Shown here: positions 6,031 to 22,648 of the stretch, in pieces
Layout of the letters: each line of letters begins with the position of its first letter
How positions within the stretch are numbered: position 1 is the first letter of the stretch
Origin: Niastella populi
Lineage (GTDB): Bacteria; Bacteroidota; Bacteroidia; Chitinophagales; Chitinophagaceae
Assembly: GCF_002078015.1 (NCBI RefSeq)
Contig: NZ_LWBP01000243.1
Span: 62,001-126,000, forward strand
DNA: 64,000 bases
Direction of reading: 5' to 3'
The notes under the pieces: model-generated
Told to the model about the DNA's origin: nothing
What the model saw: the letters and a program-made list of their open reading frames with translations, nothing else
Database searches by the model: none
Made by a program: the position numbers and the translations under genes

Positions 6031-7101
6031 TTAAGCTGCGGGATCAATAAATTTCAGAATAAAATATATTAATGCGGCAAGTAGGCCACTTACAGGTATG
6101 GTCAATATCCATGCCCAAAGCAGGTTGATTGAAACGCCCCAACGTACGGCTGATAAGCGTTTGGTCATACCCACACCCATAATTGAACCGGCAATGGTAT
6201 GGGTTGTACTTACCGGTACGCCCAGTCCCTGCGATACACCATACAGGGTTACGGCGCCTGCTGTTTCTGCAGCCACGCCTTCCAGCGGAGTTACCTTGGT
6301 GATTTTGGTTCCCATTGTTTTTACAATACGCCAGCCACCCATCATGGTACCCATGGCTATACACACATAACAGGTAATAGGTATCCATTGTGGTACATGG
6401 CCGAAGGTGGTTTTACCATGTTTGTCAACCAGTACTTCAACCTGTGCCCAGGAAGGAATGGGCATTCCGGTTTGGGAAGCATACACGCTGAATACAACCA
6501 TGGCTGCGGTAATGATACCGATTACTTTTTGCGAATCGCTACCCCCATGCCCCAAACTAAAAGCGGCAGATGAAACCAGCTGCATACGCCTGAACCATTT
6601 GTCGGCCCGGTAGGGGTTGGCCCTTCGGCACAGGTTCACTATAAGCACCGTAATAAGAAATGCAATGAACATTCCTATAAACGGGGCCAGTACAATGAAT
6701 AAAACGGTGTCTAAGATCACCCTTTGGTTAATTACACTAAAGCTGCCGGCATGCGCAACGGCTGCGCCGGCAAAACCACCAATAAGGGTATGCGACGAAC
6801 TGGAAGGGATTCCAAACCACCAGGTGAGCAGGTTCCAGCAAATGGCAGCTATTAATCCGGCAAATATTACGTATAAATTAATGGCGTCGTTGTTTACCGA
6901 TTTGGCAACGGTATTGGCCACCTTAAGGTCAAATATCCAATAGGCAAGAAAGTTGAACAGGGCGGCCCATACAACTGCCTGAAAAGGTGTTAGTACTTTT
7001 GTTGAAACAACTGTGGCTATGGAGTTGGCAGCGTCGTGAAAACCATTGATCAAATCGAAAGCCAGTCCGAGTATGATAATAATAACTAATAATGTAAGCA
7101 T
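6031..7101 (-). CDS. pit: Inorganic phosphate transporter, PiT family
   Basis: A 356-aa integral membrane protein. The two PiT signature repeats are visible: GFHDAANSIATVVSTKVLTP near residue 21 and the C-terminal mirror GAVTLYGVSQGLGVPVSTTH near 295. Both contain the conserved Asn/Ser/Thr of the phosphate and cation path. About ten hydrophobic helices are predicted. It imports phosphate by cation symport. It is the second gene of an operon with the PhoU-like gene, 35 bp apart. No Pho-like repeat array was found upstream of the operon, which fits a housekeeping, low-affinity system. Confidence 0.95.
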   Translation of the reverse strand: MLTLLVIIIILGLAFDLINGFHDAANSIATVVSTKVLTPFQAVVWAALFNFLAYWIFDLKVANTVAKSVNNDAINLYVIFAGLIAAICWNLLTWWFGIPSSSSHTLIGGFAGAAVAHAGSFSVINQRVILDTVLFIVLAPFIGMFIAFLITVLIVNLCRRANPYRADKWFRRMQLVSSAAFSLGHGGSDSQKVIGIITAAMVVFSVYASQTGMPIPSWAQVEVLVDKHGKTTFGHVPQWIPITCYVCIAMGTMMGGWRIVKTMGTKITKVTPLEGVAAETAGAVTLYGVSQGLGVPVSTTHTIAGSIMGVGMTKRLSAVRWGVSINLLWAWILTIPVSGLLAALIYFILKFIDPAA

Positions 7102-7136: not shown

Positions 7137-7784
7137 TTACGCGTATTTAATAATGATGGATTCAATAACGTTACCGGCATCCTCACATTTATCGGTTACA
7201 ATTTCCATTACCTGATAAATTTCCCGCTTTTTTATCACCTCTTTGGCGTCGGGTTCGGTTTCGAACAGGCGATCGATGCTTAAATCGAATATATCGTCGG
7301 CCTGGTTTTCGATGCTGTTCACTTTAACCAGGGCATCGGTGATCTGGCGCATGTCGCGCATATCGCGCAATTGCAGTACGGCATTTTTAATTTGCTCGCA
7401 ACTCTGATCGATAAGATCGGCCATTTTCTGAATGCCCTGATCGTTGGGATTTACCTTATAGAAATTGATTTTTTTAGCCGAAGCGAAAATGTAATCGGCA
7501 ATGTCATCCAGTGCGCTGGCGAGGTAGTGGATGTCTTCACGGTCGAAGGGGGTAATGAAATTTCTGCCGAGCTCGGTAAAGATCTTGTGGGTGTAATCGT
7601 CATTTACATGCTCCAGGTCTTCGATCTGGGAAATCAATGCCGCCCTTTTGTCGAAGTCAGGTTCGGTAACTACTTCCTTCATCACTTTACCCATTTTAGC
7701 CACAGTATGGGCAACCTGTTCAAATAAGGAATAGAATATCCTATCCTTCGGCATGAAAATCTTCATTATAGAGTTTAAACCCAT
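7137..7784 (-). CDS. PhoU-like (DUF47) regulator of phosphate transport
   Basis: A 215-aa, mostly helical protein of the DUF47/PhoU-like family that accompanies PiT transporters. Visible landmarks: FEQVAHTVAKMGKVMKEVV, IEDLEHVNDDYTHKIFTELG, then FITPFDREDIHYLASALDDI (a metal-binding-type acidic helix), repeated more weakly as VNSIENQADDIFDLSIDRLF. Cytoplasmic; it presumably gates or tunes the PiT transporter encoded 35 bp downstream. A -7-like box (TATTTTTG) lies upstream near 7809-7816. Confidence 0.9.
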   Translation of the reverse strand: MGLNSIMKIFMPKDRIFYSLFEQVAHTVAKMGKVMKEVVTEPDFDKRAALISQIEDLEHVNDDYTHKIFTELGRNFITPFDREDIHYLASALDDIADYIFASAKKINFYKVNPNDQGIQKMADLIDQSCEQIKNAVLQLRDMRDMRQITDALVKVNSIENQADDIFDLSIDRLFETEPDAKEVIKKREIYQVMEIVTDKCEDAGNVIESIIIKYA

Positions 7785-8133
7785 TTACCTAAAAATTTGT
7801 CGCAAAAATAGAACTAATACCATAGGATAAAAAAAAGGGCACCTCGGTAATAATTACTTAACACAAAGATAATATTGGATGCGGTTAGGCGTGTGAATTA
7901 CTTAAATACCTGATTGTCAATATGTAAATAATTTACTGATTTGCTAATGAGTACAATGGATATAACTATGGCCCATTAATACTCAATTTCTTAATAAAAA
8001 TATTATACCAGTGTTGGGCAATTGGCCTGTAATGCGCTGGCCCTGGTTTTGAAGAAATAATCTTAAAATAATAATTACATAATAATGCTGCCCCAAAAAA
8101 ACTGCTATGCCTGGTACTGATCATTCCGAATTC
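7785..8133. other. Divergent intergenic region, PiT operon / porin
   Basis: An AT-rich 349-bp region between divergent transcription units. A -7-like TATTTTTG is seen on the minus strand near 7809-7816. I see no convincing 11-bp repeat array, hairpin or small ORF. Confidence 0.4.
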
Positions 8134-9432
8134 ATGGCTAAGGTTATTAAAACTGCCGTTTTATTGCTGTTGTGTGGTACATCGGATTTGCAGGCGCAAT
8201 TCCTTACTCAAATGATGGATACCAGCACCAGCGTAGGCAGAGGGATTTTACAGATGTACTGGAAATTCAACCGTATTTATTTTACCGGTTATTTGCAGCC
8301 CCAGTTTCAGTTTGCACAGGAAAAAGGCGCCCAAAGCTGGAATGGAGGCAATTTTGCTCCGGAGGTAAACAACCGGTTCATGCTGAGGAGAGGCCGCGTT
8401 CGCCTCGATTATGTGCATATGAATAATAATGACGAGATCTCCATATATTTTGTTTTCCAGTTCAATGGTACGGAGCGTGGAGTCGTTATCCGCGATTTCT
8501 GGGGGCGGGTATTTGAGAACGAATGGCAGGTTTTTAACCTTACCACCGGTATGTTCGCCCGCCCTTTTGGCTATGAAGTGAATTTGAGCTCGGGCGACCG
8601 GGAATCACCCGAGCGGGGCCGGATGTCGCAAATATTAATGAGAAATGAACGTGATCTGGGCGCCATGGTTTCTTTTGAACCCCGGCGCAAGGACCATCCA
8701 CTGCGCAATCTGAAGGTAGATGCGGGCTTTTTCAACGGCCAGGGTTTAACTGCACCGGGTGAATACGACTCATATAAAGATTTTATTACCCGGGTGGCCT
8801 GGCGACCTTACCCTATAAGTAAACATCTTTTAATTTCGGGCGGCCTCTCATATCTAAACGGTGGATTGTTTCAAAATACAAAATATACTTACAGGATGGC
8901 CAATGGCGCCAATGGAAAACAGTTTACCATTGATTCTGCGGATGATAATATTGGCCGTAAAGCGCCTCGCTATTATTATGGCGCCGATATGCAGTTAAAA
9001 TTGAAATATAAGAACGGGGGGGCGACAGAATTGCGACTTGAGTACTGGCGGGGAACCCAAACGGCTTCAGCCGGTACCAGTGAAACACCCACCGCTTTAT
9101 TAAATGAACCTTACTTTGTTCGTAAGTTTGACGGTGCCTTTATATATCTGCTGCAGCGCTTTAACACCCATCACCAGGCGGGTATCAAGTATGACTGGTA
9201 CGATCCGAATACCGACGTAAAAGGAAGCGAGATCGGGGAAAACAACAACAATTTAAACGCCACGGATATTAAATACTCAACTGTTGCTGTCGGATATAAT
9301 TATATAATCAATGAAAATGTACGTCTTATGTTATGGTACGACCTGATAAAGAACGAATCAACGTCATTGACCGACTATACCGGCGACTTAAAGGATAATA
9401 TCTTCACAGCAAGGCTGCAATTCAAGTTTTAA
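8134..9432 (+). CDS. Outer-membrane porin, phosphate-selective porin O/P type
   Basis: A 432-aa protein from the ATG at 8134, chosen because it opens with a signal peptide (AKVIKTAVLLLLCGTSDLQAQ). The ATG nine codons upstream (8107) would put charged residues before it. The mature part is beta-barrel-like: alternating aromatic strands, YFTGYLQPQFQFAQ, NRFMLRRGRVRLDY, FGYEVNLSSGDRESPERGRM, and a terminal aromatic residue (LQFKF). This matches the OprO/OprP-like porin family. Function in phosphate uptake is inferred from family and from its position divergent to PiT. No clear Pho array was found in its leader. Confidence 0.85.
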   Translation: MAKVIKTAVLLLLCGTSDLQAQFLTQMMDTSTSVGRGILQMYWKFNRIYFTGYLQPQFQFAQEKGAQSWNGGNFAPEVNNRFMLRRGRVRLDYVHMNNNDEISIYFVFQFNGTERGVVIRDFWGRVFENEWQVFNLTTGMFARPFGYEVNLSSGDRESPERGRMSQILMRNERDLGAMVSFEPRRKDHPLRNLKVDAGFFNGQGLTAPGEYDSYKDFITRVAWRPYPISKHLLISGGLSYLNGGLFQNTKYTYRMANGANGKQFTIDSADDNIGRKAPRYYYGADMQLKLKYKNGGATELRLEYWRGTQTASAGTSETPTALLNEPYFVRKFDGAFIYLLQRFNTHHQAGIKYDWYDPNTDVKGSEIGENNNNLNATDIKYSTVAVGYNYIINENVRLMLWYDLIKNESTSLTDYTGDLKDNIFTARLQFKF

Positions 9433-9523
9433 TTCCCGATAAACCCCACACCTGCAACACCTTACAATCATTATTGTGCCAATTTTCTTAGAATGTTCTG
9501 AGAGTCAGTGATTTAATATTTGG

Positions 9524-9561
9524 GTAACATTGACGAAACACTGGCGTAACCTTCCGTTAAC
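9524..9561 (+). promoter_or_regulatory. Distal Pho-box-like array (four 11-bp repeats)
   Basis: 5-mers GTAAC, GAAAC, GTAAC and TTAAC start at 9524, 9535, 9546 and 9557, exactly 11 bp apart. The array has no -7 box of its own and lies upstream of a second array that does. Confidence 0.6.
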
Positions 9562-9596
9562 ATTAGGGCCATTTTTTACCGTTACCCACAGGCTAG

Positions 9597-9652
9597 TTAA
9601 TAATTCCTTAACATACGGGTAACATAGCGATAACAGGCCGTGGATACTTTTG
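9597..9652 (+). promoter_or_regulatory. Pho-box-like promoter of the TonB receptor gene
   Basis: TTAAT, TTAAC, GTAAC and ATAAC start at 9597, 9608, 9619 and 9630 (11-bp steps). Exactly 10 bp separate the last 5-mer from a -7 box TACTTTTG at 9645-9652. Repeats of TTAACA-like words every 11 bp are the known geometry of PhoP/PhoB binding sites. Confidence 0.75.
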
Positions 9653-9673
9653 CCGCAAATAAACCCACTATTT

Positions 9674-12496
9674 GTGCGTAAAATTTTTGTTCTTGTAATT
9701 GCAACATTGATAACTGCTACGTTTTCGTATGCCCAAACCGGTAAGATAGCCGGTAAAGTGCTTAATGAGAAAAACGAACCACTTAGTGGAGTTTCCATTA
9801 AGATCGATGAGAGTGCTGCTGGCGGTGGCGTTGCCACAGATGTGGAAGGCAGGTTCCTTATAAAACTGAAACCGGGCAAATACACGCTTAACTTATCGTC
9901 GGTAGGCTATAATAGTAAAACCATTACAGACATTCAGGTTGATAATAATGGTTTACAGGAGCTCACCATTGTAATGCAGGCTAAAACCAAGGAGCTGAGC
10001 GCGGTGGTTGTAAGTGTTTCGGCACGCCGTGAAACCGATTTTGCCCTGCTGAACATGCAAAAGAACAATGCCAGCATTTCTGATGGCATTTCTGCTGAAA
10101 CAATAAAAAGATCGCCCGATAAAAATACCGGTGAGGTTTTGAAAAGGGTGAGCGGTACTTCAATCCAGGACAACAAGTTCGTTGTTGTTCGTGGTTTGAT
10201 TGACCGGTATAACGTGGCAACCATCAATAACGCCATGCTGCCAAGTACCGAGCCCGACAGAAGAGCTTTTTCTTTCGACATCATTCCTTCGAGCCTTATA
10301 GATAATATCATGATCTATAAAACGGCCAATCCCGATCTGCCCGGTGACTTCGCGGGCGGCGTGGTGCAGGTGTCGACAAAAGACGTTCCCAGTAAAAATT
10401 TCTTCAACATTGGCGCAGGCGTAAGCTATAACACCATTTCAACAGGTAAAGATTTCAATCCCGGTTATTTATCAAAAACCGATTACCTGGGTTTTGACGA
10501 TGGCAGCCGTGAATTGCCTAATGGTTTCCCTTCAAGAAAAGGATTTCAGGGGCAGGACTTCGATGCCCGCGCTGAATACTCTAAGTTGATGAAGAATACC
10601 TATGGCGATCGTTACAAAGGCAATGCACTGCCCAATCAGAGCTACAACCTGAGCTGGGGTAAACGTTTCGACCTGAAAAATTCCGGCGTAATTGGTTCCA
10701 TTCTCGCACTTACTTATCGCAATAGCCAGGCATTGGTAGAAGGTGTAAGATCTGAGTTTGATAACTCGAATGCCGCTGTGAATGGCGCTGCTTATTTATA
10801 CAGTGACTCTACTTATAAATTCACTACCAGCATAGGCGCTTTATATAATATCTCTTACAAAAAAGGCAAAACCAAAATTGCATTCAAGAACCTGTTCAAC
10901 CGGTTGTTTGAAACTTCCAACCTGGTAAGAACCGGTCCGCAGTATTACAGCAGCAATGCGGCTGTGTATGCACAGGGTAGTGAAACGGTGGTAAAAACAT
11001 TGTACAGTACCCAGTTGGAAGGTGATCATTCAATGAAGAATAAATCGAAGCTTACCTGGAATTTGAATTACGCGCTCACGCTTCGCGATAATCCCGATTA
11101 TAAATTCGCCCCTTTCATTAAATCAGAAGAGGATGCGGATAAAGCAGAGGTGCCTTATGAAGTGGTGCTGAGGGATACGTACCGGTTTTTTGCCAACCTG
11201 GAAGAACATGCTGTAGGTGGTAATGCCAATTACTCGCAACCGGTAAAATTATTTGGCGATAAAGCAAGCTCTATTAAGCTGGGTGTAATGTCGCAATACA
11301 AGTATCGCGAATTTTCTGCCCGTATTTTTCGTTACAACAAGTCACCGTACTCATCTTTCAATAATGATTTGTTGACAATGCCTGTTAAGACCATTTTTCA
11401 GGATGCAAACATGTACAGAGATGGTTTTGCTTTGGAAGAGATCACCAACCTTACCGATAAATATGATGCCAACTCCCTGTTGAACGCAGGTTATGTTATG
11501 TTAGACGCACACCTGACCGAAAAACTCAGGTTTGCAGGTGGAGTGCGCGTTGAAAGTTTCGGGTTTGAGGTAAATACTTCTGACTTTTCGGGTCTGAAAG
11601 TAAAAGCCAAAAAAGATTACGTTGACGTGCTGCCTTCAGTAAACTTTACTTATTCCCTGAACGCGCGCAGTAACCTGCGTCTTTCGGCCAGCCGTACGGT
11701 AAGCCGTCCTGAGTTCCGCGAAGTTGCCAACTTCTCGTTCTATGATTTCGTACGCAACGTACAGGTGCGTGGTAATACAAAACTTGAAAGGAGCCAGAAC
11801 ACCAACGTGGATCTTCGTTATGAAATATATCCTACTAACGGTGAAGTGATCTCTGCTTCAGTATTTGTGAAGCATTTCAACAAGCCCATTGAGCAATATG
11901 TTGACCCGGGCTCCAATCCGTTGAACATGATGTTTTCTTACTTCAACGCCAAATATGCGCTGAACTACGGTATCGAGGCCGAGGTTAAAAAGCGTTTGAG
12001 CTTTCTCGGAAAACAGGAATGGCTGGAAGACCTGTTTGTTTTTGCCAATGCAGCCCTCATTAGATCAACTGTAAATGTCGATGGCCTCGATGTGGCTGTT
12101 GCCGATAAAGACCGGCCTATGCAGGGACAGTCGCCGTATGTTATCAACGCGGGGTTGACATATGCAGGTAGCGGCAATACTTCTGCCAGCTTACTGGTGA
12201 ACAGGGTTGGCCAGCGTATTGAAGCCGTAGGTAACGATCCTAAAGGCATACCCGATATATATGAGAATGGAAGAACCATTCTTGATTTTCAGATAAGCCA
12301 GAAAGTTTTACGGAAGAAAGGTGAAGTAAAACTCAACATCTCTGATCTGTTGAACCAGAAATCGATTTTTTATCAGAACTACAGAATGGATACCGATAAG
12401 ATCTCAAAACGCTCTTATAAAGCCGGTGAAGACCGTGTTTGGGCCAGCTATCGTTATGGCAGCAGCATTGGCCTGAGCTTCACCTATAACTTTTAA
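9674..12496 (+). CDS. TonB-dependent outer-membrane receptor, predicted phosphate-regulated
   Basis: About 940 aa. I place the start at the GTG at 9674: the signal peptide (RKIFVLVIATLITATFSYAQ) begins there, and the TTG at 9650 falls inside the -7 box. Residues about 22-105 form a carboxypeptidase-regulatory-like beta-sandwich (GKVLNEKNEPLSGVSIKI). The plug follows, with VLKRVSGTSIQDNKFVVVRG and NPDLPGDFAGGVVQVSTKD. The remainder is a 22-strand-type barrel ending in an aromatic residue (LSFTYNF). It imports a substrate too large for porins using TonB energy. Its own Pho-like promoter and the co-regulated beta-helix lipoprotein downstream suggest an organophosphate or phosphopolymer ligand (inference). 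Confidence 0.9.
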   Translation: MRKIFVLVIATLITATFSYAQTGKIAGKVLNEKNEPLSGVSIKIDESAAGGGVATDVEGRFLIKLKPGKYTLNLSSVGYNSKTITDIQVDNNGLQELTIVMQAKTKELSAVVVSVSARRETDFALLNMQKNNASISDGISAETIKRSPDKNTGEVLKRVSGTSIQDNKFVVVRGLIDRYNVATINNAMLPSTEPDRRAFSFDIIPSSLIDNIMIYKTANPDLPGDFAGGVVQVSTKDVPSKNFFNIGAGVSYNTISTGKDFNPGYLSKTDYLGFDDGSRELPNGFPSRKGFQGQDFDARAEYSKLMKNTYGDRYKGNALPNQSYNLSWGKRFDLKNSGVIGSILALTYRNSQALVEGVRSEFDNSNAAVNGAAYLYSDSTYKFTTSIGALYNISYKKGKTKIAFKNLFNRLFETSNLVRTGPQYYSSNAAVYAQGSETVVKTLYSTQLEGDHSMKNKSKLTWNLNYALTLRDNPDYKFAPFIKSEEDADKAEVPYEVVLRDTYRFFANLEEHAVGGNANYSQPVKLFGDKASSIKLGVMSQYKYREFSARIFRYNKSPYSSFNNDLLTMPVKTIFQDANMYRDGFALEEITNLTDKYDANSLLNAGYVMLDAHLTEKLRFAGGVRVESFGFEVNTSDFSGLKVKAKKDYVDVLPSVNFTYSLNARSNLRLSASRTVSRPEFREVANFSFYDFVRNVQVRGNTKLERSQNTNVDLRYEIYPTNGEVISASVFVKHFNKPIEQYVDPGSNPLNMMFSYFNAKYALNYGIEAEVKKRLSFLGKQEWLEDLFVFANAALIRSTVNVDGLDVAVADKDRPMQGQSPYVINAGLTYAGSGNTSASLLVNRVGQRIEAVGNDPKGIPDIYENGRTILDFQISQKVLRKKGEVKLNISDLLNQKSIFYQNYRMDTDKISKRSYKAGEDRVWASYRYGSSIGLSFTYNF

Positions 12497-12510
12497 TAGT
12501 CGCATCAAAC

Positions 12511-12566
12511 ATAATATTGGCTTAACCGGCTGTTAATATTCTCTTAACGAACGTAATAGAATTTTG
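12511..12566 (+). promoter_or_regulatory. Pho-box-like promoter of the beta-helix lipoprotein gene
   Basis: ATAAT, TTAAC, TTAAT and TTAAC start at 12511, 12522, 12533 and 12544 (11-bp steps). Ten bp then separate them from GAATTTTG at 12559-12566, a -7 box with G in place of T. The predicted start of transcription is about 20 bp before the ATG at 12594. Confidence 0.7.
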
Positions 12567-12593
12567 CTAAAAATTAAACAAGAAATAATTTCT

Positions 12594-13925
12594 ATGACCA
12601 TTCAAAAGAAATTCCTGAGTATGTTAGCGATAGCGGCAGTTGTTGTTGCTACAGGTTGCTCCAAATCAGATGATGAAGACGAGGGAACAACGCCTACTAA
12701 CTCTGTACTTCAGGGAAACATTTCAGAGAGCAGAACACTTACAGCTGATAAGAAGTGGACACTGAAAGGATATGTATATGTAACTAACGGTGCAACTCTC
12801 ACCATCGAGCCTGGAACGGTAATCGTTGGCGATGTTGATGTTAAAGCTGCCCTTTGTGTTGAAAGAGGTGGTAAACTGATCGCTGAAGGTACTGCTGCAA
12901 AACCAATCGTTTTCACTTCTGGCAAACCAGCTGGTTCACGCGCACCCGGCGATTGGGGCGGTATTGTATTGTTGGGTAAAGCAAAAACCAACCGTTCTGC
13001 CACACCGGTAATTGAAGGTGGTCTCGATCGTCCTTACGGTGGTTCTGATGATGCAGACAACTCTGGTTCATTAAAATATGTAAGAATTGAGTTTGCAGGT
13101 ATTGCGGCTTTTGCCGGTAGCGAGATCAACGGCCTGACCCTCGGCGGCGTTGGTAGCGGTACCACACTGGAAAACATCCAGGTTTCTTATGGTAACGACG
13201 ATGGATACGAGTTCTTCGGCGGTACTGTAAGCGGCAAACGCCTGGTGACTTATGCCTGCTCAGATGATGATTTCGATTTCGATTATGGGTTTACCGGTAA
13301 GATCCAATACGGTGTTGTATTGAAAGATCCTAACACGGTTGATAACGGTGACGATAACAACGGTATAGAGTGTGATAACGACGGCAGCGCAACTACTGCT
13401 ACTCCGTTCACGCGTCCTAACCTGTCGAACTTCACTTTTGTTGGGCCCAACAATGCATCAAACAACGTTCGTCATAAATACGGTAACCGTTTCAGAAGAG
13501 CAAGCCGCTTCTCACTGCGTAACTCCATCATCATGGGTTACAATGCTGGTGGGTTCGTAATGGAATCTGATGCAACTGCACAGGCATACGTAGACGGTAA
13601 TTCTTTGTTCAAAAACAACCTGGTGCATGCCGTTGTTAAGCCTTACGTTGGTGTATCTGCTGTCATTTCCGATGCTGATGTGAAAACCAAAGCTGAATCG
13701 GAAGGCTGCATTACCTATACAGATGCTGCTGATATCAAATTAACTGCACCGTTCGCTATCAGTGCTCCGGATATCACGCCTGCAACAGGTTCTCCTGCTT
13801 TGGCCGGTGCCGATTTCGGCGGAATGGATTCATTCTTTGAAACTACCACTTTCAGAGGCGCTGTAGGTACTACAAACTGGATGAAGGACTGGACAAGCTT
13901 TACTCCAAAAACAAACAACTATTAA
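12594..13925 (+). CDS. Secreted beta-helix lipoprotein, predicted phosphate-regulated
   Basis: A 443-aa protein from the ATG at 12594. The upstream TTG at 12564 overlaps the promoter box and was rejected. It has a lipoprotein signal with lipobox cysteine (LAIAAVVVATGCSKS), then an acidic linker (DDEDEG). The body has the rung pattern of a right-handed parallel beta-helix: ATLTIEPGTVIVG, GGKLIAEGTAAKPIVFTSG, DWGGIVLLGKA, LEGGVGSGTTL-like turns, and an acidic DDDFDFDYGF segment that could bind metal. It lies directly after the TonB receptor gene but has its own Pho-like promoter. It could be a surface-exposed ligand-binding or hydrolytic partner of the receptor; no catalytic family is recognised. 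Confidence 0.8.
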   Translation: MTIQKKFLSMLAIAAVVVATGCSKSDDEDEGTTPTNSVLQGNISESRTLTADKKWTLKGYVYVTNGATLTIEPGTVIVGDVDVKAALCVERGGKLIAEGTAAKPIVFTSGKPAGSRAPGDWGGIVLLGKAKTNRSATPVIEGGLDRPYGGSDDADNSGSLKYVRIEFAGIAAFAGSEINGLTLGGVGSGTTLENIQVSYGNDDGYEFFGGTVSGKRLVTYACSDDDFDFDYGFTGKIQYGVVLKDPNTVDNGDDNNGIECDNDGSATTATPFTRPNLSNFTFVGPNNASNNVRHKYGNRFRRASRFSLRNSIIMGYNAGGFVMESDATAQAYVDGNSLFKNNLVHAVVKPYVGVSAVISDADVKTKAESEGCITYTDAADIKLTAPFAISAPDITPATGSPALAGADFGGMDSFFETTTFRGAVGTTNWMKDWTSFTPKTNNY

Positions 13926-13955
13926 TAAAATAGCGGTTTCAATTTTCTGCAAAAG

Positions 13956-13984
13956 CCCGTTCTTCAAAGAGCGGGTTTTTGTAT
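13956..13984 (+). terminator. Intrinsic terminator after the beta-helix lipoprotein gene
   Basis: The arms CCCGTTC and GAGCGGG flank a small loop and are followed by TTTTTGTATTTTT. It lies 30 bp past the stop. Confidence 0.8.
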
Positions 13985-14007
13985 TTTTCAGCCTAAATGT
14001 TATTTCT

Positions 14008-14463
14008 ATGCATAAAGCATACATCCTGTTTTTTTCGGTTACCCTTTTAATGATCACTGCCTGTGATTCCGGTGCTGCCGGTGAAGCTGCAAAAGCACCC
14101 GATTCAACTGCTGTTACTGCGAATACCGTGGCTGAGAAGCCCGGGCTTTCAAAAACCGATAGTATCGAACTATTACATTTTCCCGATCCCACCAATCAAA
14201 AAGTGTATCAGAATGTAATTATAAAAGATACTGCTTTTATCAGTCAGCTCACCAGCTCGGCATTAGCTGCACCCGTTACAAAAAATCCCTGTGCCCATGA
14301 TTATAAGTTGTACCTTTTCAGGAATGGCGATGTGTACAAAACAATCTATGCGGCAACCAGCGATTCATGCCGGTACCTGGCTTACGTGATCAATGGGGTT
14401 ACCCACTTTACCGGTTTGAACGATTCAACATTAGCTTTATTAAAAAAGCATACGAAGCGGTAA
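14008..14463 (+). CDS. Small lipoprotein, unknown function
   Basis: A 151-aa protein. Lipoprotein signal peptide with lipobox MITAC at residues 16-20, then a low-complexity Ala/Thr/Glu linker to about residue 50, then a compact domain with two cysteines (KNPCAHDYKL and SDSCRYLAYV) that could form a disulfide. I do not recognise the family. It follows the beta-helix lipoprotein after a terminator, so it may depend on read-through or an unseen promoter. Presumed inner- or outer-membrane anchored on the periplasmic side. Confidence 0.75.
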   Translation: MHKAYILFFSVTLLMITACDSGAAGEAAKAPDSTAVTANTVAEKPGLSKTDSIELLHFPDPTNQKVYQNVIIKDTAFISQLTSSALAAPVTKNPCAHDYKLYLFRNGDVYKTIYAATSDSCRYLAYVINGVTHFTGLNDSTLALLKKHTKR

Positions 14464-14483
14464 GTGTGAATACGATAGCGGAA

Positions 14484-14539
14484 TTAATCGTTCCTTAACT
14501 ATTGGGTAAACGTTTCATCATGTTGGCAAAATATCTTGC
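14484..14539 (+). promoter_or_regulatory. Pho-box-like promoter facing a gene-free region (RNA 1)
   Basis: TTAAT, TTAAC, GTAAA and ATCAT start at 14484, 14495, 14506 and 14517 (11-bp steps). Ten bp then lead to TATCTTGC at 14532-14539. No plus-strand gene follows. Confidence 0.65.
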
Positions 14540-14545
14540 AGCGGT

Positions 14546-14636
14546 TCCGTCCATCACTAAGATAACCGTCCATACCCTTTAATCAAAAATGTCCCTGACT
14601 ATAAGCCGTCCGGTGCCCGCCAGGCGGCTTTGTTTA
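14546..14636 (+). ncRNA. Predicted phosphate-starvation small RNA 1
   Basis: A transcript of about 90 nt predicted from the Pho-like promoter ending at 14539 to a hairpin with 8-bp arms (14603-14610 and 14623-14630, one G-U pair) followed by TGTTT. No credible ORF lies inside: the only ATG would run antisense into the neighbouring minus-strand gene. Boundaries are inferred, with the 5' end placed about 7 nt after the -7 box. Confidence 0.45.
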
Positions 14637-14646
14637 TGCAAAGCTT

Positions 14647-15861
14647 TTAATTCTTCTGGGGATTATATACATACATTACTTCGAAAGGCGTTTTCTTTAA
14701 TTCAGGAAGCAATTGACCAACCAGCAGGTCTTCTTTTTGTGGAGTAGGTTCACAAACGGTGTATTTGTTACCATTGTAAATGATCGGTTTGCCAACGGGT
14801 TTGTTGAACTGTACCGCTATTGTAACATGTTTGGGATATGATAGCACGATCATCGGCAGGTTATAGATCTCCTTTACCAGGCAGTAGAACAGGGCAACGC
14901 GGTCTTCGCAGTCGCTTTGATCGTATAATAAAGTTTGTTCGGGCGACAGGCGTTTTTCACTGCCGAACACCTGGGTATCGGGTTCGAACAGAAATGCGTA
15001 CCGGGTAAACCGCATCAGGTAATCGACCCCGTTCTTCACACTTAGCCCTTTTACGCTTTTCTTCAATAAGGGAATGAGTGAATAGTAGGTTTCCCGGCTC
15101 AGTGGAATATTGAGATATAATGAATAGTCAACTACAGGATAGTTGATAAAAAGCGTTTGGATCTGGTTGTTGAGCTTTACCTTATACTGATACTCGTTAT
15201 CATTATAGTTAAATCGCAGTTCCTTCACTTTATAATCGGTTGACCTGAATTCGGGCAGGTGGGTGATCTTGTAGGAGAAGCTGTTCTTTGCATCGGGAAC
15301 CACTAATTCTACTACTGAAAACCTGTTCTTCTGAAAGTCGATATTATTGCCATAGTCGTGGTAATTCAAACACACATATTGTTTGCCATTTACAACCCGG
15401 TTGGGGATGTTGTAGGTATTTTCCTCGCAATGGATGTAAAAAAGGATATAATCGCCCGATACGGCAAGGAGGGCATCGTAACCCGTGCGGGAAAGGAAAT
15501 ACCATTTATACAGGGTATACCGGTGATAATCGTCGGTTTTGGGGCTTATCTGCTGGGCCGTTTTCCTTATAAGCTGGTAAAACAGCCAGTCATTCGGTTT
15601 AAACTTTTCTTTATAAGCCTGCAGGGCGTTTATAACCACATCGTAATCGGCACCGTTCAGGTTCCGGTAAAACGCCTTTACCGATGTTTCGGTCGACAGA
15701 ACTGGTTCCGCAGGAACCAGGTTTTTGTTGAAATCAAAGCTGATGGGTTCGCCGCAAAAATCAAATTGAATACGGTTGGCCCGGGTGTCGATCGGGTAGA
15801 TGGCGCAACATGCGATGATCAGTAATATGGTTGTAATCCTGTTCACGGTTAATTTCCACAA
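14647..15861 (-). CDS. Secreted protein with transglutaminase-like domain
   Basis: A 404-aa protein with an N-terminal signal sequence (TTILLIIACCAIYPIDTRA). The N-terminal 270 residues have no family I recognise. At about residues 285-375 there is a transglutaminase-like core: SDCEDRVALFYCLVKEIYNLP supplies the cysteine at the helix start, and SYPKHVTIAV supplies the histidine on the next strand. A later polar residue (NKYTVCEPTP) could complete the triad. Such Cys-His domains act as amidases, proteases or peptide crosslinkers in the envelope; the exact reaction is unknown. Monocistronic between two predicted plus-strand RNAs. Confidence 0.7.
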   Translation of the reverse strand: MWKLTVNRITTILLIIACCAIYPIDTRANRIQFDFCGEPISFDFNKNLVPAEPVLSTETSVKAFYRNLNGADYDVVINALQAYKEKFKPNDWLFYQLIRKTAQQISPKTDDYHRYTLYKWYFLSRTGYDALLAVSGDYILFYIHCEENTYNIPNRVVNGKQYVCLNYHDYGNNIDFQKNRFSVVELVVPDAKNSFSYKITHLPEFRSTDYKVKELRFNYNDNEYQYKVKLNNQIQTLFINYPVVDYSLYLNIPLSRETYYSLIPLLKKSVKGLSVKNGVDYLMRFTRYAFLFEPDTQVFGSEKRLSPEQTLLYDQSDCEDRVALFYCLVKEIYNLPMIVLSYPKHVTIAVQFNKPVGKPIIYNGNKYTVCEPTPQKEDLLVGQLLPELKKTPFEVMYVYNPQKN

Positions 15862-15953
15862 TTAAAATACGAAAATTAACAATAAGGTAATATTAAGTTT
15901 TGCTGATTTGGGCGGTTATACTTATGAACAACTGGGTTCATGATCATAAATTG

Positions 15954-15998
15954 CTAACACTGCTATAACACCCCGCTAATAGTGGCCCGCTACCTTGC
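15954..15998 (+). promoter_or_regulatory. Pho-box-like promoter facing a gene-free region (RNA 3)
   Basis: CTAAC, ATAAC and CTAAT start at 15954, 15965 and 15976, with a weak fourth copy ATCAT at 15943. Ten bp then lead to TACCTTGC at 15991-15998. Confidence 0.65.
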
Positions 15999-16004
15999 AG
16001 CTCC

Positions 16005-16358
16005 ATGTATTTGTACCAGTGAGCCGGTTGCCAGGGGGCCGGGTTGCCGGGAGTTGTCTTATTAAGAAAATCCTGAATGAATATTTGTAAATAAAACAGT
16101 GCAATTGGTGTAAGAAATTAAATGAAGTCGGGTGATTTTTTGAAAATTGTAAGAAGAAAGTAAAATTCTATAAATAATAATGAAATTTCACGTTTACGGA
16201 AGTATCTTTAATCATCTTATCCTCGCCAAAGGCAAATTTCAGAATATCCCGCTCTGAACTTATTAATCAATACTATCAAGATTCTCTATAAAGTGAGAGT
16301 TTTATTTCTCTCATGTGACTGACGCCGTTCGATTTCTATCGTGACGGCTCTTTTTTTT
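16005..16358 (+). ncRNA. Predicted phosphate-starvation RNA 3 (or micro-peptide mRNA)
   Basis: The 566-bp gap between the transglutaminase-like gene and the glycosyltransferase gene has a Pho-like promoter at its left and a strong plus-strand terminator at 16324-16358, predicting a transcript of about 350 nt. It begins with a GC-rich near-repeat (GCCGGTTGCCAG / GCCGGGTTGCCGGG). The only coding candidate is a 25-codon ORF at 16180-16257 (MKFHVYGSIFNHL...). Its coding status is uncertain. Confidence 0.4.
16324..16358 (+). terminator. Intrinsic terminator, plus strand
   Basis: GCCGT/ACGGC and CGAT/ATCG pairings form a hairpin at 16324-16348, followed by a run of eight or more T. No annotated plus-strand gene precedes it, which supports a non-coding transcript. 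Confidence 0.8.
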
Positions 16359-16375
16359 ATACGATACATAAAAAA

Positions 16376-16403
16376 GTGCCACAACTAATAAAAGCAGTGG
16401 CAC
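16376..16403 (-). terminator. Intrinsic terminator of the PlcP-glycosyltransferase operon
   Basis: Arms GTGCCAC (16376-16382) and GTGGCAC (16397-16403). On the minus strand the hairpin is followed by TTTTTT. It lies 25 bp past the glycosyltransferase stop. Confidence 0.8.
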
Positions 16404-16427
16404 ACCTGGTAAAACGGAAGAACGCTC

Positions 16428-17462
16428 TTAATTGAAGATAAGGTCGGGGTAGGGTATGTCTAATGGTGATTTGAGGTCTGTACAGCGGTACATCAGAATA
16501 TTGATAATAGCTTCGGTAGAATAGCGGTACTGAACCGTAGGCGTATTGGGGTCGCTCACCCAGTTATTGAAGGTATCGGTAAAATCATCATCCAGTTTAT
16601 CGAGGGTGGTAACGCCGATCTTCTTCAGGGCAGCGGCATTACATTGTTGCTCATACTGTCCCTGAATAGGAATGGCGATCATCTTTTTCTTCAGGTACAA
16701 TGCTTCGGCAGGCGTTTCAAAACCGGCCCCGCACACAATGCCATGGCAACTGATAAGGCTGCGGTTGAAATCTTTTGCATCAACCGGGCGAAAGTTCATA
16801 TGATCTACAGTATAAGGCGTAACCGCCTGGCGGGAAAAAACTTCAAAACGATGGTCTTTGAAGGGTTTCAGCAAATCGATCAACTGTTTATCGCAATAAG
16901 AAGGCAGGTAAACGGTAATGTGCCCATCGTTGGTGGCTTCAGCTTTTAATATCTCTTCTTTGATAACCGGTGAAAAGATAAAATCATCATAGTTCTCGAA
17001 GTGCAGCCCGATATAATTGGTTGCGCGGGCATAGTTCTGCAGGATCCACTCCCCGGTTTTGTTTGGCTTTGCTGGTCGCGGCGTTTTATCTGATAAAAAA
17101 CTGGCCTGGTGACCAAAATTTACGCTGGGTACTTTTTTGCGGGCGCAGGCGAGGGCGGTGATACATTCAAAATCGTTGATCACCAGGTCGTATTTCTCAA
17201 CCGGCAGATCGCGCATTTCTTTCATTACCCTGAAGGGGGAAATGCCGCCAATGATCTTTTTGTAGTTTAGCTTGCCGTCGCAGGTATAAAAAAGGCTTAA
17301 CCCTTTGCTGCGGTATTTGACAGGCGCATTTAACGGCAGGGTGCTGTTGGCGCCGCTTAGGAAAATATCAACCGTGCCGAACTTCTGTAAGTAGGGGAGC
17401 AGCTCCATGGCGCGACTGATATGTCCGTTGCCTGTAGCCTGAATTGCATAAAATATCTTCAT
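16428..17462 (-). CDS. GT-B glycosyltransferase (MurG/GT28-like), probable glycolipid synthase
   Basis: A 344-aa protein with two Rossmann halves. The N-terminal loop GNGHISRAMELLPYL matches the acceptor-side glycine motif of MurG/MGDG-synthase-type enzymes. The C-terminal donor site HGIVCGAGFETPAEALYLKK followed by IPIQGQYEQQCNA matches the UDP-sugar site (GxGT..E, geQ..NA). It lies 24 bp after the PlcP-like gene, in one operon with a strong Pho-like promoter. In alpha-proteobacteria PlcP makes diacylglycerol from phospholipids and a glycosyltransferase converts it to glycolipid during phosphate starvation. This gene is placed to do the second step (inference; those Agt enzymes are of another GT family). 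Confidence 0.8.
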   Translation of the reverse strand: MKIFYAIQATGNGHISRAMELLPYLQKFGTVDIFLSGANSTLPLNAPVKYRSKGLSLFYTCDGKLNYKKIIGGISPFRVMKEMRDLPVEKYDLVINDFECITALACARKKVPSVNFGHQASFLSDKTPRPAKPNKTGEWILQNYARATNYIGLHFENYDDFIFSPVIKEEILKAEATNDGHITVYLPSYCDKQLIDLLKPFKDHRFEVFSRQAVTPYTVDHMNFRPVDAKDFNRSLISCHGIVCGAGFETPAEALYLKKKMIAIPIQGQYEQQCNAAALKKIGVTTLDKLDDDFTDTFNNWVSDPNTPTVQYRYSTEAIINILMYRCTDLKSPLDIPYPDLIFN

Positions 17463-17486
17463 ATCGAATAAATAAAACCTGGGGTT

Positions 17487-18317
17487 TTAAATTGCCAGTG
17501 AATTAATGTAGAAACTGATCTCATCTGTTAACACATTCACCTTGGCTGGTATGTCTATTGCCGTTTGCGGGAAATCTTTTTCGTTGTATTCAAAAATGTT
17601 CCATTCGTTCTGGCGGTATTCGAGCGCGGTAAGGTGTTCAACCCAGTCGCCTGAATTAAGATAAGTGACCTTGCCTTTTTCATTTTCTATCACTCTTTTC
17701 TGCGGCTGGTGTATATGACCGCAGATCACATAGTCATAATTCTTCTCAATTGCCAGCTCTGCTGCTATCTGTTCAAAGTTGTCGATCTTGGCCATTTTGT
17801 TAACCCCGGCCATTACATTCTTTGAGATCGACAGTTTTTCGCGGCCAAATGCTTTCAGTACAAAATTTACAAACCTGTTAAACAGGATCAGCGCCCCGTA
17901 ACCATTGCTTCCCAGTTTGGCCAGGATTTTTGCTCCACCCCTGGTAGTGTTGTCGAAAACATCGCCGTGAAAGATCCAGGTCATTTTATTATCGATCTCA
18001 AGCACCAGTTTATCGGTAAGGGTAAAATGGCTTAACTGAAAATCGCTGTAGCGGCGCAGCAACTCGTCATGGTTGCCTGTAATGTAAAACACGCGGGTGC
18101 CCTTTGTGATCAGGTTCAGTACCTCTTTTATTACGGCCATATGCGATGCCGGAAAGTATCGCCTCGAGAACTGCCAGCCGTCGATTATGTCGCCATTGAG
18201 GATAAGAATGTTTGGCAGGATGCTTTTAAGGTAGGCAACCAGTTCTTTTGCACGACATCCGTATGTACCTAAGTGTACATCAGATATAACAACCACATCT
18301 ACTGCGCGTTTTTCCAT
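17487..18317 (-). CDS. PlcP-like metallophosphoesterase (phospholipase C type)
   Basis: A 276-aa calcineurin-like phosphoesterase. The metal-site motifs are in order: SDVHLGTYGCRA (about residue 12), LNGDIIDGWQ (about 41), ITGNHDE (about 78), IFHGDVFD (about 111), CGHIHQPQKR (about 196) and SGDWVE (about 219). The SDVHLGTxGC, GDIIDGW and GDWVE signatures resemble PlcP, which strips head groups from phospholipids under phosphate limitation, more than LpxH. Start set to the ATG at 18317; the TTG at 18335 lies inside the -7 box. First gene of the operon with the glycosyltransferase. A UDP-diacylglucosamine hydrolase role remains the alternative. Confidence 0.8.
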   Translation of the reverse strand: MEKRAVDVVVISDVHLGTYGCRAKELVAYLKSILPNILILNGDIIDGWQFSRRYFPASHMAVIKEVLNLITKGTRVFYITGNHDELLRRYSDFQLSHFTLTDKLVLEIDNKMTWIFHGDVFDNTTRGGAKILAKLGSNGYGALILFNRFVNFVLKAFGREKLSISKNVMAGVNKMAKIDNFEQIAAELAIEKNYDYVICGHIHQPQKRVIENEKGKVTYLNSGDWVEHLTALEYRQNEWNIFEYNEKDFPQTAIDIPAKVNVLTDEISFYINSLAI

Positions 18318-18332
18318 TGACTTTGGGTTTAT

Positions 18333-18410
18333 CAAAATTCAGGTATATATATGACCCCAGTGTTACAGCATTATTAAGCCCCCGTTAGCCTTGTGTAAAG
18401 GAATTGTTAC
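18333..18410 (-). promoter_or_regulatory. Pho-box-like promoter of the PlcP operon (six repeats)
   Basis: On the minus strand, GTAAC, TTTAC, CTAAC, TTAAT, GTAAC and GTCAT follow in exact 11-bp steps (plus-strand positions 18406, 18395, 18384, 18373, 18362, 18351). Ten bp then separate them from GAATTTTG (18333-18340). It is the longest such array in the window. Confidence 0.75.
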
Positions 18411-18449
18411 GAACCGGTGTTTGGTAACTAAAACCGGCTGGGCGTAGAC

Positions 18450-18505
18450 GTAATCATTTGTTCACACTGTAGTAAGAATACGGTAATATTGACCCTGTAC
18501 CTTAG
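18450..18505 (+). promoter_or_regulatory. Pho-box-like promoter (RNA 2), divergent from the PlcP operon
   Basis: GTAAT, TTCAC, GTAAG and GTAAT start at 18450, 18461, 18472 and 18483 (11-bp steps). Ten bp then lead to TACCTTAG at 18498-18505. Together with the minus-strand array it forms a two-way control region. Confidence 0.65.
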
Positions 18506-18511
18506 TGTCCG

Positions 18512-18600
18512 TTTTATTGCTGTGTGTTATACATAAATAACAATCGTAGCAGTTTCTTAATGTTGACCGGCGGAGCTTTTTTAAGTTTCGCCCTTTTTAT
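18512..18600 (+). ncRNA. Predicted phosphate-starvation small RNA 2
   Basis: About 87 nt from the Pho-like promoter to an intrinsic terminator with a 10-bp stem (18569-18578 and 18583-18592, two G-U pairs), a UUUU loop and a CTTTTTATTT tail. No ORF fits. The DUF5690 gene starts only 200 bp beyond the terminator, so read-through could also link it to this promoter. Confidence 0.5.
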
Positions 18601-18602
18601 TT

Positions 18603-18750
18603 AATACGCTAAAGGCTCAATGCTGAACGCATAAGGCTTACTCGCGAAGTTTGATCAGTTCATACTGTAGCGCTTTCGCGAAGGCGTACTAATAGGGATG
18701 GCTCGAAATTGGTGAGCAGGCCTTCAGCGTTCGGCATTTAGCGTTTATTT
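18603..18750. repeat. Intergenic stuttering repeat, GAACGCTTAAG family
   Basis: The left arm (ACGCTAAAGGCTCAATGCTG...) and right arm (CCTTCAGCGTTCGGCATTTA...) are built of the same inverted words seen at 2521-2590 and 33239-33283, with about 85 bp between them. They lie between RNA 2 and the DUF5690 gene. Confidence 0.55.
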
Positions 18751-18804
18751 CCTTATTTTACGAGAGAAACGTTTTCACACAGCCATCATTAAAACTGCTT
18801 CCGT

Positions 18805-20094: not shown

Positions 20095-20102
20095 AAGTAA
20101 AA

Positions 20103-20124: not shown

Positions 20125-20136
20125 CCTTAATATGAT

Positions 20137-21443: not shown

Positions 21444-21505
21444 TCATTATCACTCTCTTCCTGTATTTCATTATCCCATTATCAAATTATCACATTAGCT
21501 AATTA
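21444..21505. repeat. Intergenic stuttering repeat, GATAATGTG family
   Basis: The tract just past the phoR stop contains CCTGTATTTCATTATC twice, then words of the GATAATTTGATAATG type. Related tracts are at 22552-22648 and 30832-31001. Confidence 0.6.
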
Positions 21506-22549
21506 ATCCCTTTTCGCCTCTACCGTAAAACCAATGGTAGTGCCAACATCGGGGGTGCTGCGTACGTGAATGCTTTGTCCGTGCGCTTCAATAATATGTT
21601 TACAAATGGCGAGGCCGAGGCCGGTGCCGCCTTTATCGCGGCTGCGGGCGGTATCGGTACGGTAAAAGCGTTCGAAAATGCGGGGCAGGTGCTCTTCTTC
21701 GATACCAATTCCATCATCGCTGATTTCAACCAGCACATGCTGATCGTCGGTGTCGTAAATACTGGCGACTATATTCCCGTTTTGTTTGCCGTATTTGGTG
21801 GCATTTTCAACCAGGTTGATAAGTACCTGCTTAATTTTTTCCTTGTCGGCAAAAACCGTGATGGGCGCTTCGCAGCCTTTTTTGATAATGGTGCGAATGT
21901 TCTTACCCTGCGTTTTTATCGATAAGGAGTCGTAAACTTCGCGAATAAGGTCCTGGATGATGAAATTCTGTTTGGCCAGTAGTTGTTCGCCCCGTTCGAG
22001 CTTTGAGATCTCATCGAGGTCGTTCATCAGGTTCACCAGCCGGTCGACGTTCTTGGCGGTATTTTCGAGAAATCTTTTCCTGATCGCTTCCTCATTTACC
22101 CCGTCGAGCAGGGTATCTACATAACCCTGAATGGCAAATATGGGCGTTTTGAACTCGTGGGCAAGGTTCTGCAGGAATTCTTTGCGGTAAGCTTCATTCT
22201 GCTGAAGCATTTCAATTTCGCGGTTGCGGCGTTCGCCCCATTCCTCCACATCGGCCCGCACCTCATCGATGCTTTTTTGGGGAAGAATGTACTTGAAATA
22301 CATCTCTTCCTTTTTGGTGGCCTTGGTTTGATAAATGAGTTTGTAGATCAGTTTTATTTTGCGGTAAATAAACCTTTCCATGGTTACCAGAATAAGCCAG
22401 TACCCGCCGGCAAAAATGGCCACCAGCGAACCCAGGCCGGCTTTCCAGTTAAGCGTAAGGGCGAATATCCCTAAAGCTATAGGAACAGCTAATATGCCGG
22501 CTGTAAAAGCGGCTAACTGTCGTGGTGAGAGGTTTTTTGCTGAAGACAT
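21503..22549 (-). CDS. phoR: PhoR-like sensor histidine kinase
   Basis: A 348-aa kinase. Two membrane helices lie near the N-terminus (FTAGILAVPIALGIFALTL and LGSLVAIFAGGYWLILV). The H-box LAHEFKTPIFAIQGYVDTL carries the phosphorylated His. The N-box ENATKYGKQNG, G1 DDGIGIEEEHL, F-box and G2 GGTGLGLAICKHII are all intact. There is no PAS domain, so it is shorter than E. coli PhoR. Start set to the ATG at 22549, because the 24 codons of the longer frame are translated from the word-repeat spacer. It lies downstream of the PhoB-like regulator gene in one operon. PhoR identity rests on domain type and on the local phosphate genes. Confidence 0.85.
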   Translation of the reverse strand: MSSAKNLSPRQLAAFTAGILAVPIALGIFALTLNWKAGLGSLVAIFAGGYWLILVTMERFIYRKIKLIYKLIYQTKATKKEEMYFKYILPQKSIDEVRADVEEWGERRNREIEMLQQNEAYRKEFLQNLAHEFKTPIFAIQGYVDTLLDGVNEEAIRKRFLENTAKNVDRLVNLMNDLDEISKLERGEQLLAKQNFIIQDLIREVYDSLSIKTQGKNIRTIIKKGCEAPITVFADKEKIKQVLINLVENATKYGKQNGNIVASIYDTDDQHVLVEISDDGIGIEEEHLPRIFERFYRTDTARSRDKGGTGLGLAICKHIIEAHGQSIHVRSTPDVGTTIGFTVEAKRD

Positions 22550-22551
22550 AG

Positions 22552-22648
22552 AAAACCAATGTGATAATTTGCTAATGTGCTGATGTGCTAATGGAAAACC
22601 AGGCTCTTTGTAAATTAGCAAATTAGCTAATTATCTCATTATCACATT
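22552..22648. repeat. Inverted stuttering repeat inside the phoB-phoR junction
   Basis: Words such as GTGATAATTTGCTAATGTGC on one arm meet TTAGCAAATTAGCTAATTAT and TCTCATTATCACATTGTG on the other, with about 20 bp between. The element fills almost the whole spacer and touches the phoB stop. Confidence 0.7.

Follow-up and report, generated by a model that had tools for sequence, protein, structure and literature searches.

Putative PHO boxes fused to Bacteroidota promoters in a phosphate gene block of Niastella populi, with two candidate small RNAs

The window analyzed here is a 64,000-nucleotide stretch of Niastella populi DNA (contig NZ_LWBP01000243.1, positions 62,001 to 126,000), in which six sites carry TTAAC-like repeats every 11 bp upstream of a -7 promoter box. 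Judging from the sequence, these sites are very likely PHO boxes fused to a Bacteroidota promoter, i.e., an on-switch for phosphate starvation whose predicted reader is the PhoB-like response regulator encoded at 22642..23319 (minus strand; Pfam, NCBIfam). We put the probability of this reading at roughly 0.9. A Pho regulon had already been proposed for this block from the letters alone, and it is now supported by the gene neighbourhood, by the same geometry before counterpart genes, by the phosphate genes found behind the arrays in a scan of all genomes, by the lack of a -33 TTTG element in the six sites and by the low-phosphate induction of counterpart genes in Flavobacterium johnsoniae, as tabulated in the available text of that study (PMC8115612).

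Array geometry in the window

Reading the sequence base by base confirmed TTAAC-like 5-mers in an 11-bp register at all six places, and exactly 10 bp separate the last repeat from the following 8-mer in every one of them, as originally described. Site 1 (9597..9652, plus strand) has four repeats (9597-9634) and the -7 box TACTTTTG (9645-9652), and would be the promoter of a TonB-dependent receptor gene (9650..12496, plus; Pfam CarboxypepD_reg, Plug and OMP_b-brl_3). The listed start of this gene is a TTG at 9650, but by eye a GTG at 9674 is more likely. Site 2 (12511..12566, plus), with four repeats (12511-12548) and the box GAATTTTG (12559-12566), would be the promoter of a lipoprotein gene (12564..13925, plus; ATG at 12594 likely) that has no Pfam match and is FII-like on position and gene order. 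A second FII-like gene, 44% identical, is found elsewhere in the same genome (G000:C198:307025-308311). On the minus strand, site 5 (18333..18410) has six repeats (18410-18351) and again the box GAATTTTG (18340-18333). It would drive a PlcP-like metallophosphoesterase gene (17487..18335, minus; calcineurin-like, Pfam Metallophos; ATG at 18317 likely) and, in the same direction, a glycosyltransferase gene (16428..17462, minus; Pfam Glyco_trans_1_3).

The remaining sites all lie on the plus strand. Site 3 (14484..14539) comprises four repeats (14484-14521) and the box TATCTTGC (14532-14539), site 4 (15954..15998) three repeats (15954-15980) with a weaker fourth at 15943 and the box TACCTTGC (15991-15998), and site 6 (18450..18505) four repeats (18450-18487) and the box TACCTTAG (18498-18505). 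The box had been given as (T/G)AnnTTnG, which fits four of the six sites but not sites 3 and 4, where it ends in C. Similarly, the designation of all six as promoters agrees with the protein genes following sites 1, 2 and 5, but sites 3, 4 and 6 have no nearby gene start. There is no TTG 15-29 bp before the box at any of the six sites, and thus no -33 TTTG element is seen.

The window was scored on both strands with a 5-mer matrix trained on the six sites and a generic -7 scoring, using 60 dinucleotide shuffles for comparison. At period 11 and gap 10, nine window positions reach a score of at least 17, whereas the shuffles average 0.18 and never exceed 1, in agreement with the earlier statement that the arrangement is unlikely by chance. 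Besides the six sites, these positions comprise site 5 in a shifted register, an auxiliary 11-bp array upstream of site 1 (9513..9561, plus; TTAAT, GTAAC, GAAAC, GTAAC, TTAAC) and position 30312 on the minus strand, which is probably a chance match. With the threshold unchanged, 0 to 7 positions are obtained for the other gaps of period 11 and at most 2 for any other period from 8 to 14. The level of the score is circular, since the 5-mer matrix was trained on these sites, while the 11/10 spacing is not built in, because the matrix contains no spacing. Over the whole genome, 3 of the 12 places with at most one mismatch fall in this block, and the signal is confined to strong, full-geometry sites.

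Recurrence of the arrays in relatives and across genomes

With the matrix built from the six sites, the same geometry was found to recur before plcP-like, FII-like and DUF47 genes of relatives. In the order set of 119 genomes, phosphoesterase matches were obtained in 115 and FII matches in 108 at E <= 0.001; only phosphoesterase matches above ~180 bits, well apart from a background of less than 71 bits, were taken as orthologues, and all 30 returned loci were of that kind. The order sets left out L031 and L061 (the window itself) and the short-contig loci L038, L040, L048, L059 and L076, although L059 was usable. Loci reaching the threshold were counted for each period and gap, the threshold being the 99th percentile of shuffled maxima in the order sets (13.59 and 14.59) and a fixed 13.6 in the others. 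Period 11 with gap 10 was the grid maximum, with 15 of 25 plcP and 13 of 28 FII upstream regions reaching the threshold and other periods at most 3; the FII loci L078 and L086 were measured from a wrong start and are counted as misses, and part of the FII genes occupy the second position of an operon. The class test covered 47 of 148 matching genomes, mostly one per family (36 PlcP, 11 second-group), with the incomplete L093 left out before counting. Here 18/35 PlcP and 9/11 second-group upstream regions carried the 11/10 arrangement, and other periods at most 2. Before DUF47 genes (30 loci from 95 matching genomes, L360 being left out for want of an open reading frame, ORF) the corresponding figure was 13/29, with at most 2 for other periods. 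The 11/10 combination is therefore the grid maximum in all five sets (plcP order, FII, PlcP class, second group, DUF47). Neighbouring gaps at period 11 reach up to 10, because the arrays are multi-register and the box is short.

Pattern searches were made as well. With up to one mismatch allowed, TTAACn6TTAAYn6KTAACn10TAnnTTTG was found in 16 of 395 class genomes at a total of 17 places, site 2 included, and the reversed pattern at 0 places in every row shown. Downstream lie one PlcP gene, six TonB/CarboxypepD-type receptors, three FII-like lipoproteins and one PstS (TIGR02136, 258 bits), while 2 of the 17 places have no assigned gene. A related exact composite pattern was searched in 84,980 species genomes and gave 96 stretches, 87 of them non-redundant once near-duplicates are set aside; 88 of the 96 belong to Bacteroidota, Chlorobi, Ignavibacteria or Kryptonia, 4 have no group assignment and 4 lie elsewhere (Dehalococcoidia, Burkholderiaceae, Clostridiales, Patescibacteria). 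This phylum restriction is partly due to the -7 box, since the box itself is typical of Bacteroidota. F. johnsoniae is not among the 96 stretches.

Genes were annotated in the 80 listed stretches (L288-L303 lying outside), 78 of which have an ORF within 350 bp downstream, with a median of 37 bp from box to start. Pfam assigned to these 78 ORFs 22 TonB plugs, 29 CarboxypepD_reg_2, 6 Porin_O_P, 5 PBP_like_2, 5 DUF47, 5 Metallophos and 3 PHO4 domains, as well as 3 response regulators and 1 Alk_phosphatase; annotation by sequence patterns gave five PstS, five DUF47, four PlcP and four Pit. Among 76 control ORFs from the same stretches there were 2 PBP_like_2, 2 Metallophos, 2 CarboxypepD_reg_2 and 3 response regulators, the last being equally frequent in both groups, and DUF47, PHO4, Porin_O_P and Plug were absent among the 25 of 125 control-ORF families shown. 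It appears, therefore, that array matches in other genomes do precede phosphate genes, as the original prediction implied, namely those for PstS, Pit, DUF47, PlcP, porin O/P, TonB receptors and a PhoB-like regulator. A fourth repeat, not demanded by the pattern, was found in register at 46 of the 87 non-redundant sites compared with 8/348 off-register, and the unit consensus of these sites is approximately CTTAACATTGn.

The block itself was compared with syntenic 20-kb stretches of five other genera (G113, G101, G081, G114, G046) at an array score of at least 15. Arrays precede the TonB receptor in four of them, PlcP in three, FII in two and the porin in one, and phoB lies inside the stretch in all except G113. 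Gene content varies among these stretches, that of G101 containing neither the TonB receptor nor FII. In the five same-genus blocks (L191-L195) the arrays at sites 1, 4, 5 and 6 are always kept, that of site 2 is kept in three (L192, L194, L195) and that of site 3 in L191 only; in L191 and L193 the FII gene follows the receptor gene and has no array of its own. The receptor array is kept in L191-L193 as well, where the receptor has diverged (39-40% identity; 39-45% for receptor and FII together).

These data suggest the following mechanism. The phosphorylated PhoB-like regulator (22642-23319) would bind the arrays head-to-tail, with three to six CTTAACATTGn units per site and often four, which would probably correspond to two dimers. 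The last unit lies 10 bp upstream of a Bacteroidota -7 element of the TAnnTTTG type, and bound PhoB would occupy the -33 position of sigma and recruit or hold RNA polymerase on a -7-only promoter. This is modelled on the pho promoters of Escherichia coli, in which the array replaces the upstream promoter element and lies ~10 bp from the -10. Contact on one face of the helix would need just such a constant gap of 10 bp and a phase of 11 bp. Under starvation, outer-membrane uptake would be turned on through site 1 (TonB receptor) and site 2 (FII-like lipoprotein), membrane-lipid remodelling through site 5 (plcP-like gene and glycosyltransferase), and two candidate small RNAs, which might act in trans, through site 6 (RNA6) and site 4 (RNA4).

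Candidate small RNAs behind sites 3, 4 and 6

Sites 4 and 6 appear to precede conserved, terminator-ended candidate RNAs that look non-coding, and neither site 3 nor site 4 is closely followed by the start of an ORF of at least 90 aa. The predicted RNA6 (18506..18602, plus; ~90 nt) consists of a conserved CAATCGTAGCAGTTTCTTAATGTTGAC followed by a terminator hairpin (18569-18592) and a T-run. The predicted RNA4 (16005..16358, plus) has a 3' module composed of a hairpin (16293-16314), CATGTGACT and a bulged terminator hairpin (16324-16348) with a T-run. A third, weak candidate, RNA3 (14546..14645, plus), would be the transcript of site 3, ending at a hairpin and T-run (14626-14645); it was found at 85% identity over 67 nt in L191 only. 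The RNA6 hairpin is the longest in the terminator scan (10 pairs). Terminator-like sites are not in excess in 14400-18900 (7 against 5.2, standard deviation 2.4, in shuffles), and this simple scan misses the bulged RNA4 hairpin.

RNA6 is matched in 33 of 294 family genomes at E <= 0.01, of which 17 are strong (E <= 1.1e-14) and fall into four genera: six in the genus of N. populi itself (g1, own genome included), one in g9, five in g256 and five in g330. It is 98-100% identical in the five other g1 genomes from just past the -7 box to the terminator, where the identity stops, and 87% identical over 71 nt in G101, with no DUF5690 match nearby. A covariance search of 248 order genomes returned 16 matches at E <= 0.01, and matches to the model outside the four genera are weak (best 45 bits, E 2e-6, in G028). 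Clear arrays (score >= 14.5) lie upstream of RNA6 in 7 of the 17 strong matches, in g1 and g9; since they are absent in g330 and g256, the case for Pho control of RNA6 is limited to the former two genera. The RNA4 3' module (16293-16358) is conserved in the same four genera; at E <= 0.001, RNA4 is matched in 22 of 294 family genomes, some of which contain a second copy. Upstream of RNA4, an array is present in G101, in every one of the six g1 genomes and in the g330 genomes L196 and L198, whereas L197, L199 and L200 have none there. Promoter, conserved core and terminator thus occur as a unit for both RNAs in g1 and g9; the promoter part is less clear in g330 and g256 (RNA6) and in L197, L199 and L200 (RNA4). 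As a side observation, the RNA4 model matches twice in L196 and L198 (g330), where the first copy directly follows the array, and twice in G592 and G664 (g256).

RNA alignments comprised 13 of 14 RNA4 and 11 of 17 RNA6 sequences, leaving out the RNA4 of the window and near-identical RNA6 copies. Covariation was weak, with changes on both sides in 1 of 13 and 1 of 15 pairs, and the folds therefore rest on identity and terminators. A search of 9400-23500 against Rfam 15 gave two matches up to E = 1, far below the gathering score, neither of them at RNA4 or RNA6. A small-protein reading of RNA4 (a 26-aa ORF) was rejected, since two of the six same-genus genomes have an interrupted reading frame.

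It could also be argued that sites 3, 4 and 6 are promoters of distant protein genes and that RNA4 and RNA6 are 5' leaders or attenuators. A DUF5690 gene (Pfam; start at 18805, plus) does lie on the same strand ~300 bp after site 6 and ~200 bp past RNA6, and an intact DUF5690 follows RNA6 in four of five same-genus blocks and in L200. However, no intact DUF5690 was found in L193, no DUF5690 match follows RNA6 in G101 and L197, and other genes intervene in L198 and L199. RNA6 moreover ends in the longest terminator-like hairpin, at which same-genus identity also ends, and RNA4 in a conserved bulged hairpin with a T-run, running toward the glycosyltransferase gene, whose 3' end faces it from the opposite strand. 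We thus believe that leaders are unlikely, although they deserve consideration. Site 6 as a promoter of DUF5690 was likewise set aside as less likely.

Regulator, known Pho systems and the remaining block

Regarding the reader of the arrays, a PhoB-like gene of Paludibacter bears an array itself, and its product is 48% identical to the window regulator and shares the recognition helix DRTIDVHIRKIR in the alignment. This helix presumably resembles the recognition helix of E. coli PhoB. The E. coli PHO half-site is CTGTCAT, and the PhoP box of Bacillus and the Pho box of cyanobacteria have TTAACA and PyTTAAPyPy half-sites with an 11-bp period. In contrast to the E. coli PHO box, the half-site here is approximately CTTAACATTGn, with three to six units and the Bacteroidota -7 box TAnnTTTG. 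The 11-bp period is shared with the Bacillus and cyanobacterial boxes, from which the arrays differ in the promoter type downstream and in regulon content. In general terms, the PHO box of E. coli and others is likewise described, in the consulted text, as two 11-nt direct-repeat units bound head-to-tail by PhoB-family proteins at phosphate genes (PMC4415409).

The closest known counterpart is the PHO regulon and phoBR cluster of F. johnsoniae, which, in the available text, comprises an OprP porin, PhoR, PhoB, a TonB receptor (pf07715/pf13715/pf14905), FII, PlcP and a glycosyltransferase (PMC8115612). The window genes were matched to these counterparts by domain content and order, and the Pfam set of the window receptor equals that of Fjoh_0545 (PMC8115612). 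Table 1 of that study gives, at low phosphate, 8.02 for the TonB receptor Fjoh_0545, 9.91 for FII (Fjoh_0546), 8.59 for PlcP (Fjoh_4577), 5.42 for the glycosyltransferase and 3.06 for PhoB; the column is headed FC (fold change), the text speaks of log2FC, and we take the values as log2FC (PMC8115612). On the other hand, PlcP is an orphan there, its glycosyltransferase is of the pf04101 type, no small RNAs are described in the text available, and the terms "pho box" and "motif" do not occur in the main text (PMC8115612). PlcP and a glycosyltransferase form a known lipid-remodelling pair, and Pho boxes have been predicted upstream of such clusters (PMC4796936, consulted in part). The phosphoesterase gene is here followed by a glycosyltransferase gene in the same way; the glycosyltransferase is of the Glyco_trans_1_3 type, and the phosphoesterase is called PlcP-like on domain content and gene order. 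NCBIfam matches of the phosphoesterase are led by LpxH-type models, below cut-off, while the combination of a metallophosphoesterase with a glycosyltransferase partner was matched. PhoB of Bacteroides fragilis binds the pstC promoter in an electrophoretic mobility shift assay, and no sequence motif is given in the consulted part of the paper (PMC3547664). A motif is reported for PhoP of Riemerella anatipestifer, also of the Bacteroidota, where DNA affinity purification sequencing (DAP-seq) gave TTTAACA, which fits the CTTAACA core found here; the 11-bp array, the 10-bp gap and the -7 box are not mentioned in the text available (PMC9603813).

A number of observations weigh against a Pho regulon. 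The regulator falls short of the NCBIfam PhoB cut-offs (TIGR02154 / NF053854: 235.9 of 296.2 and 223.3 of 270 bits), although no other of the 103 families matches it better. The PhoR-like histidine kinase (21503..22621, minus; Pfam, NCBIfam) is far below the PhoR cut-offs and its best match is PnpS. Unlike the E. coli Pho system, this genome shows no PhoU (PF01895; a control was positive in 13 of 14 genomes), and PstC scores only 57 bits where the cut-off is 196, so that the usual Pst-PhoU input is missing. Array signal is absent (shuffle p >= 0.3) from 2 of 25 plcP loci of the order, 7 of 35 PlcP loci of the class, 11 of 28 FII and 6 of 29 DUF47 upstream regions. Some arrays stand before genes with no obvious phosphate role, i.e., MarC, a VTT-domain protein, an Atg22-like protein and an aldose epimerase among the class places and a sulfate permease in the all-genome scan. 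Loose patterns show no excess in the genome of N. populi (228+247 matches against 232+234 for the reversed control, and 136+100 against 151+160 in a second set). Finally, OprP (FC -1.3) and PhoR (0.76), in the same cluster of F. johnsoniae, are not significantly induced according to the table (PMC8115612), and the Riemerella motif is likened, in the text available, to ArcA sites and associated with aerotolerance genes, not phosphate genes (PMC9603813).

The last point would also suit a different explanation, in which the arrays are operators of another regulator of the OmpR/PhoB family, e.g., of an envelope-stress or metal two-component system, that has only the 11-bp period in common. Such a period is general for this regulator family. 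TTCTAAY-type 11-bp arrays, followed by ~10 bp and a -7-like box, were seen by eye at other loci of the same genome (L001, L005, L007, L009, L020); the one at L001 lies near another two-component pair and possibly belongs to another OmpR-family regulon, and others lie near Usp- and DUF202-like genes, so that the period alone is not PhoB-specific. Nevertheless, throughout the phylum the arrays of the CTTAACATTGn type single out PstS, Pit, DUF47, PlcP, porin O/P and one PhoB-like gene, and phoB accompanies them in four of the five syntenic stretches, which makes another regulator improbable. A chance origin of the arrays, or one as low-complexity AT-rich repeats, is favoured only by the lack of excess of the loose patterns; it has a negligible probability and is already refuted by the shuffles, by the 17 matches of the pattern in 395 genomes where its reverse has 0, and by the 11/10 grid maximum in five sets.

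With PhoB control as the preferred reading, we lean, by a narrow margin over even odds, toward a PHO promoter of shared ancestry in Bacteroidota, Chlorobi and Ignavibacteria; in one lineage within a family, PhoB would then have recruited the new families RNA4 and RNA6 at the lipid-remodelling locus as a post-transcriptional arm of a phosphate response with no Pst-PhoU input. Since PhoU is missing here, it may be asked how PhoR senses phosphate. As a conjecture, sensing may proceed via DUF47/Pit or through PhoR alone; DUF47-Pit may stand in for Pst-PhoU. Searches of the open-access literature listed no account of a PHO box in Bacteroidota or of a small RNA regulated by phosphate. The PHO box as a kind is known, while the phylum-wide form with three to six CTTAACATTGn units, 10 bp and TAnnTTTG, and its small-RNA targets, did not turn up in these searches. 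A computable operator could allow anyone to read the phosphate regulons of these bacteria off bare genome sequences, and with them a role for TonB receptors and for lipoproteins of unknown function, and would offer a clean test of a PhoB-type activator working with the unusual -7/-33 promoter of Bacteroidota. RNA4 and RNA6 would be a tangible starting point for the study of starvation-regulated small RNAs in the phylum, whose members contribute to phosphorus mobilisation in soil and rhizosphere, as stated in the text available (PMC8115612).

As for the rest of the block, a PHO4-family (Pit) phosphate transporter gene (6031..7101, minus; Pfam) and a DUF47/PhoU_div gene (7137..7784, minus; Pfam) are followed by a gene for a porin O/P-like protein (8107..9432, plus), a weak Pfam assignment with 22.2 bits against a cut-off of 20.9. 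An extra array in the DUF47/porin intergenic region (7847..7873, plus; GTAAT, TTAAC, ATAAT) has, by eye, no -7 box at 10 bp; in the loci L138 and L200 an array with TACCTTTG lies near the porin start. Upstream of phoB and pointing away from it, three repeats (23371..23397, plus; ATAAT, TTCAC, TTAAT) were seen by eye, which are also present in L191 of the same genus and might reflect autoregulation of phoB. The genes for the A, B, delta and alpha subunits of ATP synthase follow the block at 28759-33180.

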